Shown here one piece after another: positions 1,533 to 9,051 of a stretch of DNA of 58,784 nucleotides. Each line of letters begins with the position of its first letter. Within the stretch, counting starts at the first letter, position 1. Location: NCBI GenBank assembly GCA_015069625.1, contig SVIE01000003.1, positions 1 to 58,784 on the forward strand, written 5' to 3'. The position numbers and the translations under genes were made by a program. The notes under the pieces were generated by a model, which was not told the DNA's origin, did not search any database, and worked only from the letters and a program-made list of their open reading frames with translations. The DNA comes from Clostridiales bacterium. GTDB taxonomy: Bacteria; Bacillota; Clostridia; Christensenellales; Borkfalkiaceae.

Positions 1533-2381
1533 TTAATTTTTCGTTTTGCTTTTTATTAGTCTATTTGGATATTTTTTGATAAGCGTTTTATACGCTTTGT
1601 TCCTGTTTTTAGCCTTTTCGAACACCCCGTATACCACCGAACCGCTTCCCGTCATAAGCGAAGCCTTTGCACCTGCGCCTATTAAATCCATGCGCTCCGT
1701 TTCCATTTCAGGTAATATCGAAAGGGACGGCAGATATAAATCGTTTCCTAACAAGGCAAAAAATTCTTCCGTTTTCTCTTGCAGTAAACAATCTACCGCT
1801 TTTTCTGTTAAACGGCTACTGTCTATTTCTAACTCGTCAAACGCACGATAACTGTCTTTTGCGAGAATTTGCTTTTCGTTTGTTATTAACAATAGATAAA
1901 ACACTTTTTTGCCGTCGATATATTTAACCGTGTTTCCCCTGTCCGAAATAACGGCATAACCCCCTTTAAGCATATACGTTGCATCACTTGCAAGCGCATC
2001 TGAAATAGCCGAAAGGTCTTCATCTACTTCAAACAGTTTTTTTAGTCCGTTAAGCACTCCTGCAATATCTGCAGACGAACCACCAAGCCCGCCACCAACG
2101 GGAATTTTTTTATTGATTATAATATCCACGCCACACGTGTTGTACTTTTCCATGAACGCTTTTGCCGTTTTATAAGCATTGTTTTCAGTAACCACACAGC
2201 CTGCGTTAAGCCCTGTTTCAGTTAGCGTAATTTTTCTATCCGAACGCTTATTTATTTGTATTTCATCACATACGTCTATCGACGAAACGAGAGAATTGAT
2301 AGGGTGATATCCGTCTTTTTTCTGCCCCACGTCTAACGTCAAATTGATTTTTGCGTATGCTTTGAGTTTTACTTTTTTCAT
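1533..2381 (-). CDS. ispE: 4-diphosphocytidyl-2-C-methyl-D-erythritol kinase
   Basis: The 282-residue protein is a GHMP kinase of the non-mevalonate (MEP) isoprenoid pathway; it phosphorylates CDP-ME at the 2-hydroxyl with ATP in the cytosol. It begins KAYAKINLTLDV, the usual IspE N-terminus, and has the ATP-binding motif PVGGGLGGSSAD at residues 94-105. Length is normal for the family. Gene order veg - SPOCS/LysM - ispE recalls the veg-sspF-ispE order of Bacillus subtilis. Confidence 0.95.
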   Translation of the reverse strand: MKKVKLKAYAKINLTLDVGQKKDGYHPINSLVSSIDVCDEIQINKRSDRKITLTETGLNAGCVVTENNAYKTAKAFMEKYNTCGVDIIINKKIPVGGGLGGSSADIAGVLNGLKKLFEVDEDLSAISDALASDATYMLKGGYAVISDRGNTVKYIDGKKVFYLLLITNEKQILAKDSYRAFDELEIDSSRLTEKAVDCLLQEKTEEFFALLGNDLYLPSLSILPEMETERMDLIGAGAKASLMTGSGSVVYGVFEKAKNRNKAYKTLIKKYPNRLIKSKTKN

Positions 2382-2436
2382 TTGTTTTTCCTTTGTTTTC
2401 AGTCTTGCTAGCCTTTTAAAAGATTTTTATTTTGGC

Positions 2437-3945
2437 TTAATTAGCACCCCTATAAATTACAATCCTTTCATCACCTGTTAAGGGGAATTGAAGATTAGGA
2501 TTTGTTTTAAGCACTTGTTCGGGCGAAACCCCTAATCGTTTAGCAAGCGACCAAAGTTTTTCACCTGCAAACGGGATATACACGCTTATTGCACTCTTTT
2601 CCGGTTGTCTTTCGCCAACGCTTTTAACTTCCCTTATTATTTTAACAGTCTTCTGCTCTGTGGGATAAACGCTAAACGCAACTTCCGCCATAATTTCAGT
2701 TTGAGTGATAGAATGTGTTTTTGCGCTCGCCCTTTCAATAACTGCCAACACGGTTGCATCATTACCAACGTCTGGCGTATCAAGCGAAGTTTCAAAGGGA
2801 ATTTCAACGTTAAACGTGAACACGTCTGCTTCTTGGTCCTTATAATATGCGGTAAGCGAGAAAACGCCTTCCACTACGATTTTTGAACTTTCACAAGCGA
2901 CGGAAATAATTTCAATTTTCTCTCCGCTAACAGCCGTAAGTCTTGCTCCGATAGGAAGTTCTTCCGTTTCCGCCCTACCACTTATCGTCTTTTTAACGAG
3001 CCTTACTTCTTTGGCATAATCCAAAACGCATTCGGTAGGGATAACTTCGATTTCTTCCTTTTCGCAGAAAGCATCTGCTACAATTTCCGCACACGTTTTT
3101 GCAAACACCCTGTTTTCATAAGAAAAATCGACAGATAACGTAACCGTGCTTTTATTATCTTCTTCCGTGCAGGCGATATCCGTCTTAAACGATTTAACTG
3201 CTAACATTGTAGTTGCGCTCATTGACGGCATTGCTTCTTGCGAATCAAGTTCAATGCGGAAAGGTATTGTTCTATCTTCTCTTATTATATCGCTTTTTCC
3301 ACCTTTTTGCAACAATAACGCAGAAAAGTATATTTCTCCGTCAACGATAACGCTACCAACCCCACATTGTACGGCAGAAACGGACACGCCAACTGATTGA
3401 GATAACACTTCGCCAATTAAATAGGGTAAATCAAATTCTTCGTCAAACGGATACGCCCCTTTGTCTTGAGAAAAGGTTTTATCGTAAGTGATTTCGCACT
3501 TGTCGGTAATAAGCCCGTCGCCCCCACTAAACGCTTGCACTTCTTCTTCACCCGTAAGTGCCACGCATACTTTAACTATTGCAGATAACGTTAAATATTC
3601 CCCGTCGGTTGCTCGCTCAGTTTTTTCTACGGATGCAGTTGCATAAGCATGCATTTCTTTTTTAACCGTTTCATCTGAAAAAACGGCTAAAATTTCACTT
3701 CCACACTCGCATTTTTTAACTTCTCCTTCCGTATTAAGATAGGTCGCAAAAAATATTATTCTACCCCCTACTTTAACGTTTTGGTCTTTGATTTCCGTTT
3801 GGGTTGCAAGGGCAACTGCACTAACGTTTAACACCTTTAATACGTCTTTACTTTTAATATCCGCTTTGCAACTTGCCTTTACGCTATCGCAAAATTTTAA
3901 TTTGTTTCGATTAAACCTTAAACTTTCATATATCGGCTGTGTCAT
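2437..3945 (-). CDS. SPOCS (DUF3794) and LysM domain protein, spore-coat type
   Basis: About 502 residues. The body consists of repeated beta-rich DUF3794/SPOCS-like segments (for example AVALATQTEIKDQNVKVGGR near residue 45), and the C-terminus is a LysM peptidoglycan-binding domain (EKLWSLAKRLGVSPEQVLKTN). Members of this family associate with the spore cortex/coat. I chose the ATG at 3943-3945 because GGAGGAATT precedes it; the frame extends 16 codons further with no site. There is no signal peptide, as expected for a coat protein assembled from the mother-cell cytoplasm. Its placement between veg and ispE fits a sporulation role. Confidence 0.85.
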   Translation of the reverse strand: MTQPIYESLRFNRNKLKFCDSVKASCKADIKSKDVLKVLNVSAVALATQTEIKDQNVKVGGRIIFFATYLNTEGEVKKCECGSEILAVFSDETVKKEMHAYATASVEKTERATDGEYLTLSAIVKVCVALTGEEEVQAFSGGDGLITDKCEITYDKTFSQDKGAYPFDEEFDLPYLIGEVLSQSVGVSVSAVQCGVGSVIVDGEIYFSALLLQKGGKSDIIREDRTIPFRIELDSQEAMPSMSATTMLAVKSFKTDIACTEEDNKSTVTLSVDFSYENRVFAKTCAEIVADAFCEKEEIEVIPTECVLDYAKEVRLVKKTISGRAETEELPIGARLTAVSGEKIEIISVACESSKIVVEGVFSLTAYYKDQEADVFTFNVEIPFETSLDTPDVGNDATVLAVIERASAKTHSITQTEIMAEVAFSVYPTEQKTVKIIREVKSVGERQPEKSAISVYIPFAGEKLWSLAKRLGVSPEQVLKTNPNLQFPLTGDERIVIYRGAN

Positions 3946-4020
3946 AATTCCTCCTTCACCGCTTATAATCTTCGGTATAGTGTATTTTATCACCTGAAAA
4001 ATTATGCCTATATAAAAGAA

Positions 4021-4044
4021 AAACGCACCCCGTTGGTGCGCTTA
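4021..4044 (-). terminator. Terminator of veg
   Basis: Hairpin GCGCACC/GGTGCG followed by TTTTTCTTTT on the minus strand; its first arm overlaps the veg stop region. Confidence 0.75.
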
Positions 4045-4296
4045 ACCTAAAGTTTTTTCAATTTTTGTTAGTTTTACTCTACCACATAGATATTCTGAAT
4101 AGGAATACGTGGTCTTCCCCTTAAAACTATTATCATGCGGACGCACCTTAAATAGCGCAGGGTAAACACCTTCTAATTCCCCACAAAATCTAACGATTTT
4201 GTTTCTGCCTAAATTAAGCGTAACTTCAACGTCTTTTTTATGCATGTTTTTTATGGTTTCTTTTGCTTCTGATAACGAGTGGTTGTTTTTAATCAT
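4042..4296 (-). CDS. veg: Veg family protein
   Basis: An 84-residue protein of the Veg (DUF1021) family. In B. subtilis Veg is strongly expressed in vegetative cells and promotes biofilm formation, possibly by acting on SinR. The family signature is visible in GVYPALFKVRP and TYSYSEYLCGRVKL, which match the SYSYAD-type motif. I chose the ATG at 4294-4296, with AGGTGGG about 13 bases upstream; the frame extends 33 codons further, overlapping the preceding terminator, which is unlikely to be coding. The adjacent SPOCS-LysM and ispE genes support the assignment. Confidence 0.85.
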   Translation of the reverse strand: MIKNNHSLSEAKETIKNMHKKDVEVTLNLGRNKIVRFCGELEGVYPALFKVRPHDNSFKGKTTYSYSEYLCGRVKLTKIEKTLG

Positions 4297-4383
4297 ACGT
4301 GCATTATTCCCACCTAAATAATTTTTATACCACCCCTTTATAAATTCCACTTTTTTGCTAGGCTTATTCTGCCCGAAAAAAAG

Positions 4384-4410
4384 AAAAACAGGCATGGTGC
4401 CTGTTTTTTG
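4384..4410 (-). terminator. Terminator of the zinc-ribbon gene
   Basis: Stem ACAGGCA/TGCCTGT with T-runs on both sides; on the minus strand it ends in TTTTTCTTTTTTT, just after the gene at 4426. Confidence 0.75.
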
Positions 4411-4425
4411 TTTGTATATAAATTT

Positions 4426-4938
4426 TTAGAAGTCTTCGTCGTCTTCAACGTCTTCGTCTTCATCTTCTTCCGTTTCTTCAAAATCCTTTTCGTCAATTTC
4501 TGGAATTTCAAAGTCGTCGTAATCGTCAACGCTTTCTTCGATTAATTCTTCTTCCTCTTCTTCATCATCAAAAAGCGCACTACCTTCTTCTTCAACAAGT
4601 TTAGAAAGAAGAATTTCTTCTTCCGTCTTTTCTTCCTTTTCGTCTTCTTCGTCGTCAAGGAAGTTTTTCCATTCTTCGTCTTTATCGATATCTACTTGAC
4701 CGCTCTTATAATCCATTTCTTCTGCACACTTTGCGCACATTTTTTCGTCGGTCTTAATATAGTTTTGATGGCAGATAGGACAAAGCATCATTGCTTCTTC
4801 AACGTCATCTTCTTCATCAATGGCAAACACAAGTTGCGGACCTTTTTTAAGTTCCGCTTTACATACGTCACAATACTCTTCTCCCCTGCGAATATAATTA
4901 AGTTCGCATCTTGGGCATTTTATATAATCTCCTGGCAT
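4426..4938 (-). CDS. Double zinc-ribbon protein with long acidic tail
   Basis: 170 residues, function unknown. The first 75 residues carry two zinc-ribbon-like units: CPRC...CDVC (residues 8-26) and CPIC...CAKC (53-71). From about residue 85 to the end, nearly all residues are Asp or Glu, including runs such as DDEEDEKEEKTEEEI. No signal peptide. The layout resembles nucleic-acid-associated or RNA-polymerase-associated proteins that pair a folded head with an acidic tail (such as RpoE delta), but that is analogy only. Start supported by a purine-rich GGAAAAAA region. It has its own terminator. Confidence 0.75.
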   Translation of the reverse strand: MPGDYIKCPRCELNYIRRGEEYCDVCKAELKKGPQLVFAIDEEDDVEEAMMLCPICHQNYIKTDEKMCAKCAEEMDYKSGQVDIDKDEEWKNFLDDEEDEKEEKTEEEILLSKLVEEEGSALFDDEEEEEELIEESVDDYDDFEIPEIDEKDFEETEEDEDEDVEDDEDF

Positions 4939-5150
4939 TTTTTCCTCTCCATGTATATAATCATATATATTATGTTTTTTTTACGTTTTGTTACATCTAT
5001 CCGTAGCATTTGTATATTATATCCATATGAAAGTCGTTTGTAAACTGTTTTTAAATATTTTTTTTACTTTTTATGGTGTTTTTTTGCACCTTTTTTATAC
5101 TTTTTACACTAATAATAGTATTATGCCCCTAAAATATCAATATTTTTCTC

Positions 5151-5179
5151 TTGACAACCTATTTTGTTGCTTTTATAAT
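5151..5179 (+). promoter_or_regulatory. Promoter of the 5211 membrane protein gene
   Basis: TTGACA (5151-5156), 17-bp spacer, TATAAT (5174-5179), followed by an AGGAG site at about 5200. The remainder of 4939-5150 is T-rich with no coding signal. Confidence 0.8.
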
Positions 5180-5210
5180 AAAATTATATTTTTCCATTAG
5201 GAGTTAAATT

Positions 5211-5918
5211 ATGTTAAAAGAAATGTTTTCTGCTACCTATAAAGAAAATAAATTTGCAACCCTTTGCTACGTTATAGCACTTGCAATTTTTAGTGTAGCA
5301 TATATCTTCCATCCCGCTGGATACGCCGTTTCTTCTTACGCCGTATTCTTTGTTGGCGCTTGCCTATTCGGATACCTTGCTTTGTATTCTAAAACGGCTT
5401 GCGGAAAATTGCCGTTTAGATCGTGCGCCGTTATAATCGTTGCTCTTTTCACTATCCCTGAATTTATAAGCACGGTTGTAAGTTTAGCAAGTTATTTTGA
5501 CGTTGGAATTTTCTTCTATTTGCTTGCTATGATTGCCTTCGCTGCTTTCGCAGTTGCTATTTTAATAGTTGGCTTTGCTGGAATTAAAGAAAAACTTCTC
5601 AATTTGATTTTTGCTTTAATCGGTCTTGGCGGGGTGTTGTTCTTATTTGTCGCAAACGTAATATTTATGGCACAGGTTTTCGCTGCTTCAACCTTCTTCA
5701 ATGCTTTTATTTTCCTTCTCGTTCCACTTGGATTCTTCCTTGGAAATTTCTTTGAAGTGTTTAAGGACGAAGGATTCTCTTTCAAAAAGACTTCCGTTTC
5801 AAATGAAGAAGTTTCTCCTGAAATAGAAGAAACCCCCGAAGAAGACGTTGCCCCCGTTGAAGAAGTATCAGACGTTCAAGAAAATGAAAACGTAGAAAAT
5901 ACAGACGTTCAAGAATAA
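5211..5918 (+). CDS. Polytopic membrane protein with acidic C-terminal tail, unknown
   Basis: 235 residues. About five or six hydrophobic segments span residues 15-185 (for example ALAIFSVAYIF, YAVFFVGACLFGYLAL, FFYLLAMIAFAAFAVAIL, FALIGLGGVLFLFVANVIF, FIFLLVPLGFFLGNFF). The last 45 residues are acidic and low in complexity (EEVSPEIEETPEEDVAPVEE). I do not recognise the family. Single-gene unit with a consensus promoter and a terminator. Confidence 0.75.
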   Translation: MLKEMFSATYKENKFATLCYVIALAIFSVAYIFHPAGYAVSSYAVFFVGACLFGYLALYSKTACGKLPFRSCAVIIVALFTIPEFISTVVSLASYFDVGIFFYLLAMIAFAAFAVAILIVGFAGIKEKLLNLIFALIGLGGVLFLFVANVIFMAQVFAASTFFNAFIFLLVPLGFFLGNFFEVFKDEGFSFKKTSVSNEEVSPEIEETPEEDVAPVEEVSDVQENENVENTDVQE

Positions 5919-5934
5919 TAATTCAAAAAAATTA

Positions 5935-5973
5935 AAAGCACCTTTGGTGGTTCTAGCCAAAGGTGCTTTTTTC
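5935..5973. terminator. Bidirectional terminator between the membrane protein gene and spo0A
   Basis: Long stem AAAGCACCTTTGG / CCAAAGGTGCTTT with T-runs on both ends, between convergent genes. Confidence 0.85.
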
Positions 5974-5993
5974 TTTTATTTACTATCATCTCA

Positions 5994-6752
5994 TTACGCT
6001 TTTTCTAAAAGCATTTTATCGGCAACGAGTGCTATGAATTCGCCGTTAGTGGGTTTTTCTTGCCCGACGTATGCACGAACGCCAAAAATGGCGTTTATCG
6101 TTTCAATTCTCCCCCGATTCCACGCAACTTCTATTGCGTGGCGGATAGCGCGTTCTACTTTACTTGCCGTGGTGTTATACTTTCTTCCGATAGACGGATA
6201 TAATTGCTTGGTAATGTTGTTTATAACTTCAGGGTTTTCAACAGCCATCTTTACCCCTTCTCTTAAAAAGGTATATCCTTTAATATGTGGCGGAATACCG
6301 ACGTTGATAAAAATTTTACTTATCTTTTCTTCAAGCGTAACCGCACGATATTTTGAAATCACGCTTTCTACGTGTGATTCTTTGTTTTCTGAAAGTTCGT
6401 CCATCCTTGCTTTAAGAACAGCAAAGTTTAACGGCTTTGCAATAAAATACTTAGCCCCTGCGCTTATAGTTTGCGCTATTATTTCTTCCCTACATAATGC
6501 GCTTAGCACTATTACGTTTGTTTCTATCTTATTTTCACGAAGTTTGTTTAATAACATTAAGCCGTCGTATCCACCTATCACTAATTCCGTGATAACAAAT
6601 TGCGGACGCTTTAACATTATCATTTCTATCGCTTTTTCTCCCTCGTTTGTCATACCAACAACTTCATACTTTTCGTCAGATAGAAATAGTTTGCATAATT
6701 CTTCGTTTACTTCTTTTGTTGCTTGTAATAAAAACACCGTACGTTTTTGCAT
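5994..6752 (-). CDS. spo0A: Spo0A-type sporulation regulator with degenerate receiver domain
   Basis: 252 residues: an N-terminal receiver (1-120) and a C-terminal Spo0A DNA-binding domain (about 150-252). The DNA-binding half is clearly Spo0A (GRKYNTTASKVERAIRHAIE and KPTNGEFIALVADKM). The receiver lines up with B. subtilis Spo0A without gaps through position 60, yet the acidic pair Asp10-Asp11 is Gln10-Ala11 and the phospho-acceptor Asp56 is Glu56 (VITELVIGGYDG). Ser84 and Lys106 keep the switch residue and catalytic lysine. So it should bind 0A boxes but is unlikely to be phosphorylated in the normal way; Glu at this position sometimes mimics phosphorylation. A second, canonical Spo0A elsewhere in the genome cannot be excluded. 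Confidence 0.9.
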   Translation of the reverse strand: MQKRTVFLLQATKEVNEELCKLFLSDEKYEVVGMTNEGEKAIEMIMLKRPQFVITELVIGGYDGLMLLNKLRENKIETNVIVLSALCREEIIAQTISAGAKYFIAKPLNFAVLKARMDELSENKESHVESVISKYRAVTLEEKISKIFINVGIPPHIKGYTFLREGVKMAVENPEVINNITKQLYPSIGRKYNTTASKVERAIRHAIEVAWNRGRIETINAIFGVRAYVGQEKPTNGEFIALVADKMLLEKA

Positions 6753-6987
6753 ATCTTCTCTCTCCCTTTTTTCAAGCTTTTATAGTCGCTTGACTTTCTT
6801 TTATTACATTTTACAACATTTATCACAAAATTGCAAATAATATTTTACAAAATTCAAAATTATTTTTGAAAGTTTTATCCAAAATTGTCGAACAATGTTA
6901 TTTTTCGCAATTTTTAACCATAAAACCATATAAATAGTTTTGTACAAAAACTGTTTATGTGTTTTGAATAAAACAAAATCAAAATTA

Positions 6988-7018
6988 AAAAGCACGGCGT
7001 TTGCCGTGCTTTTTGTTT
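6988..7018 (-). terminator. Terminator of the 7029 lipoprotein gene
   Basis: Stem AAAGCACGGC / GCCGTGCTTT with T-runs on both sides. The rest of the 6753-7028 gap is A/T-rich and includes no gene I can support. Confidence 0.75.
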
Positions 7019-7028
7019 TAAGTTTTAA

Positions 7029-8906
7029 TTATTCAGCGGTGAAATATTTGCCTGCTTGTTGATAGTAGTAACTAGCATTTTCAACTACTAAACCAAGAAT
7101 TTCATCCTTCTTGTATCCTTCTTTTGCAAGCGCATCAAGAATATCAACCGTTGCTTCATAATCATCACGAAGTTCTTCTTTTGCTGTTTCAGATAAACCA
7201 TTAAATCCTTCAAACGCTTCAAGGATAATGCTAACGTCAACTGCTTTAAGATACTTTTTGTAAAGTGCAAGCGTATCTTTATTTACCATGTTCTTTTGTG
7301 CGTCGGTAAGTTCTTCGTATGCTTCCTTAGCAACGTTAAGAACTTCCATTGACGTATATTTTCCAGCAGAATCTTTTACGTTAAGAATAACCTTTCCGTT
7401 AGAAAGTCCCGTGGTTACGTTTGCAACTTTTGCTTCAAATAACGATACGGTATCGGCATCTGTCATTTTTGCAATAACTTTTGTGTTTTTAAGAGCAACG
7501 TAAGTGGTTTTGCCTTGATCGTTTTTGCTTTCGTCAAGTTCTGCGTTAAGCGCAACGTAGCCTACGTATGAAAGACCGGTTGCAGATGCGTCAATATAGA
7601 AAACCTTTCCGAATAAAACTTGTGGCTTGTACCAGTCGGTTGCAATCTTACCTTCAGAAACGTACTGTTCGGTTATATCCGCACCAACCGTTTCGTCAAC
7701 GTTTTTAACTTTTAATCTAGAAAGTCTATCATCACTATTCTTATAATAGATATAATCACCTTCTACAAAATAAAGCGTACCAACCTTTTCTGCCTTTGCA
7801 ACAACCTTTTCTGCGAGTTTGTTATCCCCAACAAGGGTAGTTGTTCTAATATATTCGTCTTTAACGTAATATGCTTCGGTTAAACTTTCAATAACCGTTG
7901 TATCTGCAAGAAGAGTAGCGTTATTCACAACTTGCATATTTCCCTTTGCATGTAAATCTGCCGTTGTGATTGCATACGTTTTAGACGTATCAACAGAAGT
8001 GTTATCTGCTTCTTTAATAAATACGTACGGGCCAGAAACGTAAGATAAGGTGTATTTAACAGGAATTGCCTTGTCTCCGTTAAGAACGTTTACGCCTGCG
8101 CAATCGTCAACTTTTTCATCACCAACCTTGTAAGCATAAACTTTATTATAACTTTCGGTTTGTCTAACGTAAGATGCGCCAAGTAATTCCTTTTCTTCTG
8201 CGTTGAAATCTTTATCGTAAACGTTGGTGGTATAAATTACAACCGCACCGTCAACACCTTCTGCTTTTGCAAACTTATAAGATGCAAGCGTTTCACGTTT
8301 AACTTCTTCGCTAGTTTCAGCGATAACAACTTCAGTTTCCGTTGCCGTGTTAAAGTCAACGAGTCTGGTTTCTGCTTTGTCGTAATATACAATGTGAACG
8401 TTGCCTTCTGCGTCGTTTACCATTCTGTATTCGCAATCAAGTGAATCTACCGTAAAGAACGTTTTTGTTTCAGACCCGTCGAGTTTGGTTTTAGCAAACG
8501 TCAACATGTCTTTTGCAATTACGCCTTGAGAGTTGGTATCCGTGCTGGGCGTTCCGTAATAAACGTAATCACCAGAAATGAACAAGCCTGCGTTGTAATC
8601 TTTTGCAACGAATAACTTTGGAACAACAAGTTCGGTTTTTGTTAAGTCTGTTTTTTTCGCTGCCATGAGCGCACCTTTAACAGGCGTTCCAAAAGAGTTG
8701 CTTTCTTCACTATCCCCTACACCGTTGATGTAGTAAAGATAATTGTCTGTTTCTGCAACGAAACCGTAAGTGGATTTAACTGCGCCCCAGTCTTTAAGCG
8801 TTACGTCATCCTTGTTCCACGAAGAAGTTCCGCATGCGAAAAGTCCGGTGCAAAGCAAACATACGCTAAGAATAGCCACAATAATTTTCACAAAACCTTT
8901 TTTCAT
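7029..8906 (-). CDS. Large surface lipoprotein, probable beta-propeller (DUF5050-like)
   Basis: 625 residues. A signal peptide with lipobox LFAC places the lipidated cysteine at residue 25. The mature part has repeated segments of the type YLYYING, YVYYGTPS, YIYYKN-D-RLSRLKV, the pattern of DUF5050-like beta-propeller surface proteins. The C-terminal 130 residues are helical and acidic (LTDAQKNMVN...LSETAKEEL), resembling the helical repeat found at the end of many clostridial surface proteins. It is probably exposed on the outer face of the membrane. Ligand unknown. Monocistronic. Confidence 0.75.
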   Translation of the reverse strand: MKKGFVKIIVAILSVCLLCTGLFACGTSSWNKDDVTLKDWGAVKSTYGFVAETDNYLYYINGVGDSEESNSFGTPVKGALMAAKKTDLTKTELVVPKLFVAKDYNAGLFISGDYVYYGTPSTDTNSQGVIAKDMLTFAKTKLDGSETKTFFTVDSLDCEYRMVNDAEGNVHIVYYDKAETRLVDFNTATETEVVIAETSEEVKRETLASYKFAKAEGVDGAVVIYTTNVYDKDFNAEEKELLGASYVRQTESYNKVYAYKVGDEKVDDCAGVNVLNGDKAIPVKYTLSYVSGPYVFIKEADNTSVDTSKTYAITTADLHAKGNMQVVNNATLLADTTVIESLTEAYYVKDEYIRTTTLVGDNKLAEKVVAKAEKVGTLYFVEGDYIYYKNSDDRLSRLKVKNVDETVGADITEQYVSEGKIATDWYKPQVLFGKVFYIDASATGLSYVGYVALNAELDESKNDQGKTTYVALKNTKVIAKMTDADTVSLFEAKVANVTTGLSNGKVILNVKDSAGKYTSMEVLNVAKEAYEELTDAQKNMVNKDTLALYKKYLKAVDVSIILEAFEGFNGLSETAKEELRDDYEATVDILDALAKEGYKKDEILGLVVENASYYYQQAGKYFTAE

Positions 8907-9051
8907 AAAAACTCCGTTTTGTCAGGGAAGTTTTCGACACTTCCCGAATATAACTAATAATACAGTATTACTTATTATATACTATCTTCTCTCGTTTTGC
9001 AATTATTTTTCCGACTTTTTAAGTGGATTTTAATTTTATGGAGCGCAAAAA

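Follow-up and report, generated by a model that had tools for sequence, protein, structure and literature searches.

Spo0A without an intact phospho-acceptor site in a family of gut bacteria, and its predicted autoregulation

In textbook accounts, entry into sporulation is gated by phosphorylation of Spo0A. In C. difficile, the DNA-binding domain of Spo0A alone binds the TGTCGAA core of the 0A box, and the region upstream of spo0A is its tightest target (PMC3485338). In a B. subtilis model, the effects of 0A boxes on spo0A are mainly repressive (PMC12090719). Remodelling of the Spo0 pathway has been discussed by Davidson et al. in terms of changes in its kinases (PMC6136694). One metagenome study looks first for spo0A when it assesses sporulation potential, Borkfalkiaceae included (PMC11536998).

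Pseudo-receivers, which have a receiver fold without key phosphotransfer residues, are a known class (PMC12632262; PMC4395418), and in Streptomyces this class includes single-copy developmental regulators. Many receivers dimerise through the alpha4-beta5-alpha5 face, pseudo-receivers are dimeric without phosphorylation in the 15 structures available, and a 2025 analysis locates the differences of pseudo-receivers at the active-site loops (PMC12632262). The words 'Spo0A' and 'sporulation' do not occur in the main text of this 2025 review (PMC12632262). A search of the main texts of open-licence papers returned no description of a Spo0A lacking its phospho-acceptor in these bacteria. We describe here such a protein from a 58,784-nucleotide stretch of DNA, which we call the window. 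Relatives of the source bacterium are known from animal-gut metagenomes.

The Spo0A of the window

The spo0A gene (5994-6752, minus strand) encodes a protein of 252 amino acids with a receiver at approximately 1-120, followed by a Spo0A_C DNA-binding domain at 144-246. The Pfam profiles Response_reg and Spo0A_C match with 65.3 and 132.8 bits, the latter over positions 1-103 of 104, and the NCBIfam equivalog spore_0_A scores 239.7 bits (cut-off 200). The protein is thus a Spo0A orthologue by the Pfam/NCBIfam definition (a receiver joined to Spo0A_C, with an equivalog score above the cut-off). The AlphaFold2 model has a mean pLDDT of 87.1, a pTM of 0.51, receiver blocks of 91-96 and a floppy linker; it is a model of the monomer, and this was counted against the reading as a dimeric pseudo-receiver. 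The top solved matches in Foldseek are 1fc3/1lq1 (Spo0A DNA-binding domain) and 5wq0/1qmp (Spo0A receiver). In its domain arrangement, equivalog score and both folds, and in having an exact 0A box upstream of the spo0A gene, the protein resembles the canonical Spo0A of B. subtilis and C. difficile.

It differs from them in the phosphate site. The acidic pair for Mg2+ is absent, with Gln10 (codon 6723-6725) and Ala11 (6720-6722) in place of Asp10 and Asp11, and the phospho-acceptor Asp56 is replaced by Glu56 (6585-6587). These codons are on the minus strand and were placed by translation (codon n begins at 6752-3(n-1)). The Pro at D+4 is also lost, and kinase-based activation is unlikely. The switch Ser/Thr and the Lys are present as Ser84 and Lys106 in the protein's own numbering, corresponding in the alignment to Thr86 and Lys108 of B. 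subtilis Spo0A. Identity to the B. subtilis protein is 33/118 in the receiver and 59/109 in the DNA-binding domain. With its receiver fold and without the key phosphotransfer residues, the protein falls within the pseudo-receivers. It shares with ChxR, HP1043, RitR and BldM/WhiI a receiver fold without phospho-acceptor chemistry and changes in the active-site loops; unlike it, these regulators are of the OmpR or NarL type. Action without phosphorylation, as proposed here, is also reported for the isolated Spo0A DNA-binding domain (PMC3485338); unlike in that case, the receiver is present and conserved in the window Spo0A.

An earlier note on this DNA had correctly read Gln-Ala in place of the acidic pair and Glu in place of Asp56. 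It was also right, in the protein's own numbering, that Lys106 and a switch Ser are kept, and its intact DNA-binding domain is borne out by the Spo0A_C match. Its alignment to B. subtilis Spo0A without gaps was wrong, since B. subtilis positions 75-76 are missing from the window protein. Judged from the relatives, Glu56 is not a base-call oddity, because proteins that are 96, 82 and 80% identical also have it. Regulation controlled by phosphorylation, which the note had doubted, does appear unlikely for this protein, and loss of the pocket is common to its relatives.

The source genome (1.22 Mb in 80 contigs, 77% complete) contains exactly one Spo0A_C match, as does each of 18 of 18 same-genus relatives. 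A dedicated paralogue, one of the possibilities raised earlier, is therefore rejected for the genome as assembled and for these relatives, and no canonical second Spo0A was found in the source genome.

Extent of the pocket loss and constraint on the receiver

We defined the canonical pocket as D/E10, D/E11, D56 and K108 (B. subtilis numbering) and compared 110 Spo0A rows, from 109 of the 142 family genomes with a match, with 86 rows from 85 genomes of other families of the same order, all genomes being drafts. Five of 201 loci rows had been dropped: L095 and L215 were cut at contig ends, L109 had a broken frame, and L086 (which reads DD..D) and L209 were removed by the domain cut-off. The canonical pocket was found in 1 of 110 family Spo0As, rows that are related and not independent, versus 59 of 86 from the other families. 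Residue 56 varies within the family (G30, S28, D24, E19, N8, A1) and in the 18 rows of the window's genus (E12, G5, D1). Glu56 as the key feature, as the earlier note had it, is thus not supported: in an alignment of the receiver across relatives it is not fixed, and what is shared is the loss of the canonical pocket.

Outside the order, 27 of the 30 best-scoring loci of a phylum sample, a biased choice, were canonical; two others were cut at contig ends and one had Asp-Ala with Asp56 (DA.D). A search of 5.8 billion sequences gave 7998 scored homologues. Among the best 120 of these, residue 56 was E in 60, D in 30, G in 28 and S in two, and none of these 120 closest homologues listed (0/120) had a canonical pocket.

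The loss is not confined to the family of the source bacterium: on the rows compared, pocket loss is not unique to it within the order. Glu56 occurs in 11 of the 86 other-family rows (families f9, f10, f18, f25 and f26), and its recurrence there suggests repeated loss. It is found, for example, in very small genomes of f25. In a FastTree of Spo0A itself, which carries long-branch warnings, the family rows all fall to one side of a branch with support 75, and within the family position 56 has to change nine times between Asp and another residue. Retention of Asp56 in 24 of 110 family Spo0As is a point against family-wide independence from phosphate, and part of the family may therefore still be phosphorylated. 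Members with Asp56 may still use phosphate, above all those of one genus (g2, eight rows), in which positions 10-11 are Gln-Asp in seven of eight and Gln-Glu in one.

The receiver as a whole is as constrained as in canonical proteins. Mean receiver entropy is equal (2.14 bits in the family versus 2.09 in the canonical set), and entropy of the DNA-binding domain is lower in the family (0.69 versus 0.88). By conservation among 113 receiver columns, position 56 stands first in the 59 canonical sequences; its rank drops to 52 across the family and to 57 across the genus. With entropy as in the canonical set and position 56 variable, the receiver is therefore kept for something besides phosphate uptake; by these column statistics it is maintained in the family and the phospho-chemistry is not. 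Lys108, Pro109, Asp63 and Gly64 (B. subtilis numbering, as for the positions that follow) are retained. The columns most shifted between the family and canonical sets are 60, 9, 35, 56, 59, 61, 93 and 11, mainly in active-site loops, and the residues at 91, 101, 102, 104 and 118, which belong to the alpha4-beta5-alpha5 face or lie close to it, are unchanged. This pattern of shifts matches where pseudo-receivers differ in the analysis of PMC12632262.

Sporulation genes, kinases and the surroundings of spo0A

Sporulation capacity of the family is predicted here from its genes. Spo0A_C is present in 142 of 151 family genomes and in 138 of 151 genomes of the order sample. Among 31 family genomes, SpoIVA is strong in 28 (the source genome included), SpoIIE is present in 30 and sigma-F/G type factors in all 31; the source genome has SpoIIE, SpoIVA and sigma-F/G. 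An intact phosphate site is lost in 109 of 110 family copies and core spore genes are kept; sporulation is therefore likely to be started without the usual kinase signalling. In one genus of the family (g10; G010, G043 and G130) SpoIVA is absent or gives a weak partial match though Spo0A is retained, and partial loss of sporulation is possible there.

Histidine kinases were searched for with the HisKA and HATPase_c profiles. There are two HisKA matches in the source genome, a median of three in the 31 family genomes and a median of 4.5 in 30 genomes of other families; as the ranges overlap, fewer kinases as a family trait was rejected. Ten kinases of the genus (from 16 HisKA matches in eight genomes) were examined, including both of those in the source genome. 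All ten adjoin an OmpR-like regulator, and none of the ten is therefore an orphan. No HisKA/HATPase_c histidine kinase (0 HisKA matches) was found in three draft genomes: G052, which is of the same genus and 95% complete; G022, of the same family and 96% complete; and G174, a 0.9-Mb genome from another family that is 100% complete. The HATPase_c matches in these genomes (six, five and three, respectively) correspond to gyrase/topoisomerase B, MutL, HSP90, SpoIIAB-like proteins and one HATPase_c_3 protein, the SpoIIAB of G052 and G022 being assigned by reading and position. Each of the three carries SpoIIE and SpoIVA, and its Spo0A has Glu56. A Spo0E-like phosphatase was found in none of 61 genomes; the 30 genomes of other families among them also have none, hence this result is uninformative.

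In one member of another genus of the family (G007, genus g7, locus L264), genes for an HD-domain regulator, an Hpt protein and a hybrid histidine kinase (1969-5886) lie directly upstream of a spo0A that keeps Asp56. In the stretches fetched from 15 other g7 genomes, no such kinase or Hpt gene stands next to spo0A (0/15). Linkage of a kinase to Asp56-keeping spo0A genes was rejected as a general feature: it was seen only in G007, and none was flagged in four g2 loci and one g17 locus.

Downstream of spo0A in the window lies a sporulation cluster. It includes the genes for an acidic zinc-ribbon-like protein (4426-4938, minus strand; DZR match below cut-off), with a homologue in 18 of 19 same-genus sources, and for a SipL-like spore coat protein with a SPOCS domain (2437-3993, minus strand; Pfam PF12673, 55 bits), assigned also by synteny in the genus. 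The gene order in relatives is spo0A, zinc-ribbon protein, sipL, ispE and then spoIIR and sleB, the last two from one locus tested. In the window, the region beyond ispE (370-1349) carries a helix-turn-helix (HTH) regulator and an unannotated protein of 193 amino acids where relatives have spoIIR/sleB-like genes. Upstream lies the gene for a predicted lipoprotein of 625 amino acids (7029-8906, minus strand), which has no Pfam match. This gene immediately precedes spo0A in 11 of the 19 same-genus sources, and its product is a possible linked partner.

A terminator-like hairpin (6987-7014, minus strand) between the lipoprotein gene and spo0A suggests that spo0A has its own transcript; seven terminator-like sites were found in 5900-7100, against a shuffled mean of 0.7. 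A putative spo0A promoter (TTTGCA/TTGCAA, a spacing of 17-18 nt and TAAAAT; 6808-6837, minus strand) is a weak call because such sites are no commoner than in shuffled sequence (4 versus 3.8).

An exact 0A box, TGTCGAA (6886-6892, plus strand), lies 134-140 nt before the spo0A start codon and is a predicted Spo0A binding site. Single matches to a 7-mer are expected by chance (6 found in the window versus 8.6 expected), and the weight of this evidence therefore rests on the relatives. The exact box precedes spo0A in 12 of 17 same-genus loci, the window included (60 shuffles: mean 0.4, maximum 4), in 41 of 60 other family loci (shuffled mean 2.4) and, taking the whole family, in 75 of its 109 loci. 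Upstream of control genes it was seen in 0/18 (zinc-ribbon), 0/14 (sipL), 0/9 (spoIIR-like) and 1/13 (lipoprotein) cases; a box before the lipoprotein gene (8933-8939) was rejected on this last count, which is at chance level. Among 82 loci from other families, 37 likewise have an exact box before spo0A, and the box is therefore not special to pseudo-receivers. Autoregulation of spo0A through this box, of either sign, is well predicted from the sequence comparison. Exact boxes were not enriched before spoIIE (2/20; shuffled mean 0.6, maximum 3) and none was seen in 14 upstream regions of spoIIAA compared. Enrichment before spoIIE, spoIIA and the cluster neighbours was rejected on these counts, which lend no support to direct control of the early operons.

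Explanations for a Spo0A without a phosphate site

Our preferred reading, held with moderate confidence, is that this is a pseudo-receiver Spo0A, likely independent of phosphorylation, whose activity would be set by its own abundance through the predicted 0A-box feedback. The protein would dimerise without phosphate, its binding at 6886-6892 would alter spo0A transcription, and its abundance, not phosphorylation, would decide entry into sporulation. What speaks for this is sequence-based: the lost pocket, the retained fold and alpha4-beta5-alpha5 residues, the 0A box, the kept sporulation genes and the family-wide extent. In its wider form this reading says that a whole family of gut bacteria has freed sporulation from histidine kinases by means of an autoregulated pseudo-receiver Spo0A, that some lineages are kinase-free, and that the same loss, often Asp to Glu, took place in several other families of the order; here we see the chances as evenly balanced.

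The main rival is that a small ligand or a partner protein gates the pseudo-receiver, at the degenerate pocket or at another face, with abundance secondary. Pseudo-receivers regulated in this way are known (PMC12632262), a receiver constraint at the canonical level may exceed what passive dimerisation requires, and in the genus spo0A is linked to the genes for the lipoprotein and the zinc-ribbon protein. However, the search for partners gave none whose domains are known to sense a signal; the lipoprotein, without a Pfam match, does not lie upstream in 8 of the 19 genus sources; and pocket residue 56 varies (G, S, D, E, N, A) with no single conserved new site. We consider such gating possible but rather unlikely. 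That Glu56 holds Spo0A permanently in the on state by mimicking phosphate is improbable. Although Asp-to-Glu changes can partly activate some regulators (PMC12632262, PMC4395418), Spo0A is among those for which this change alone is insufficient (the ALR paper, PMC4395418), and receivers without the aspartate in general have Glu more often than any other replacement (PMC12632262). Glu56 recurs in 12 of the 18 rows of the genus and, spread over five other families, in 11 of the 86 other-family rows, and all three genomes without a detected kinase have it, but the Gly, Ser, Asn and Ala of close relatives cannot mimic phosphate; with Gly or Ser at this position in close relatives, no phosphomimic need be assumed.

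Residual phosphorylation, through Asp11, a retained Asp56, acetyl phosphate or the few paired kinases, is very improbable for the window protein, which has none of Asp10, Asp11 and Asp56. The Lys and Ser/Thr are kept in it, Asp56 is kept in 24 of 110 family proteins and the source genome has its two kinases; against this, the examined kinases of the genus are paired with other regulators, and no kinase was detected in three relatives that carry Glu56. Least probable of all is decay, with sporulation being lost and the receiver drifting. One genus of the family without a full SpoIVA, and one member of the window's genus with a frameshifted spo0A in its assembly, would fit decay, but receiver conservation equals that of canonical proteins, the DNA-binding domain has the lower entropy given above, and both Spo0A_C and the sporulation genes are widely kept.

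If the preferred reading, control by abundance of a pseudo-receiver Spo0A, is correct, a Spo0A that is conserved yet cannot take phosphate would mean that the sporulation gate can be rewired, and pseudo-receiver research would gain a case whose output is known. It would also caution that finding spo0A in a metagenome tells neither how nor whether Spo0A is switched. The natural variants at position 56 (E, G, S, N and D) allow tests of what phosphorylation is needed for.

Additional Spo0A_C matches occur in ten other genomes examined and are mostly short, receiver-less or poorly matching. Short receiver-less Spo0A_C proteins are found in several relatives (for example, L365, L366, L369-L371 and L377), with two in G174. 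The frameshift in the same-genus genome G081 (L109) lies between the receiver and the DNA-binding domain of spo0A in a draft assembly and may be an error or decay. One genome of the same family (G032, genus g16) has, alongside a main Spo0A without Asp56, a second full-length Spo0A_C protein (L372) with a canonical-looking receiver (E-D, Asp).
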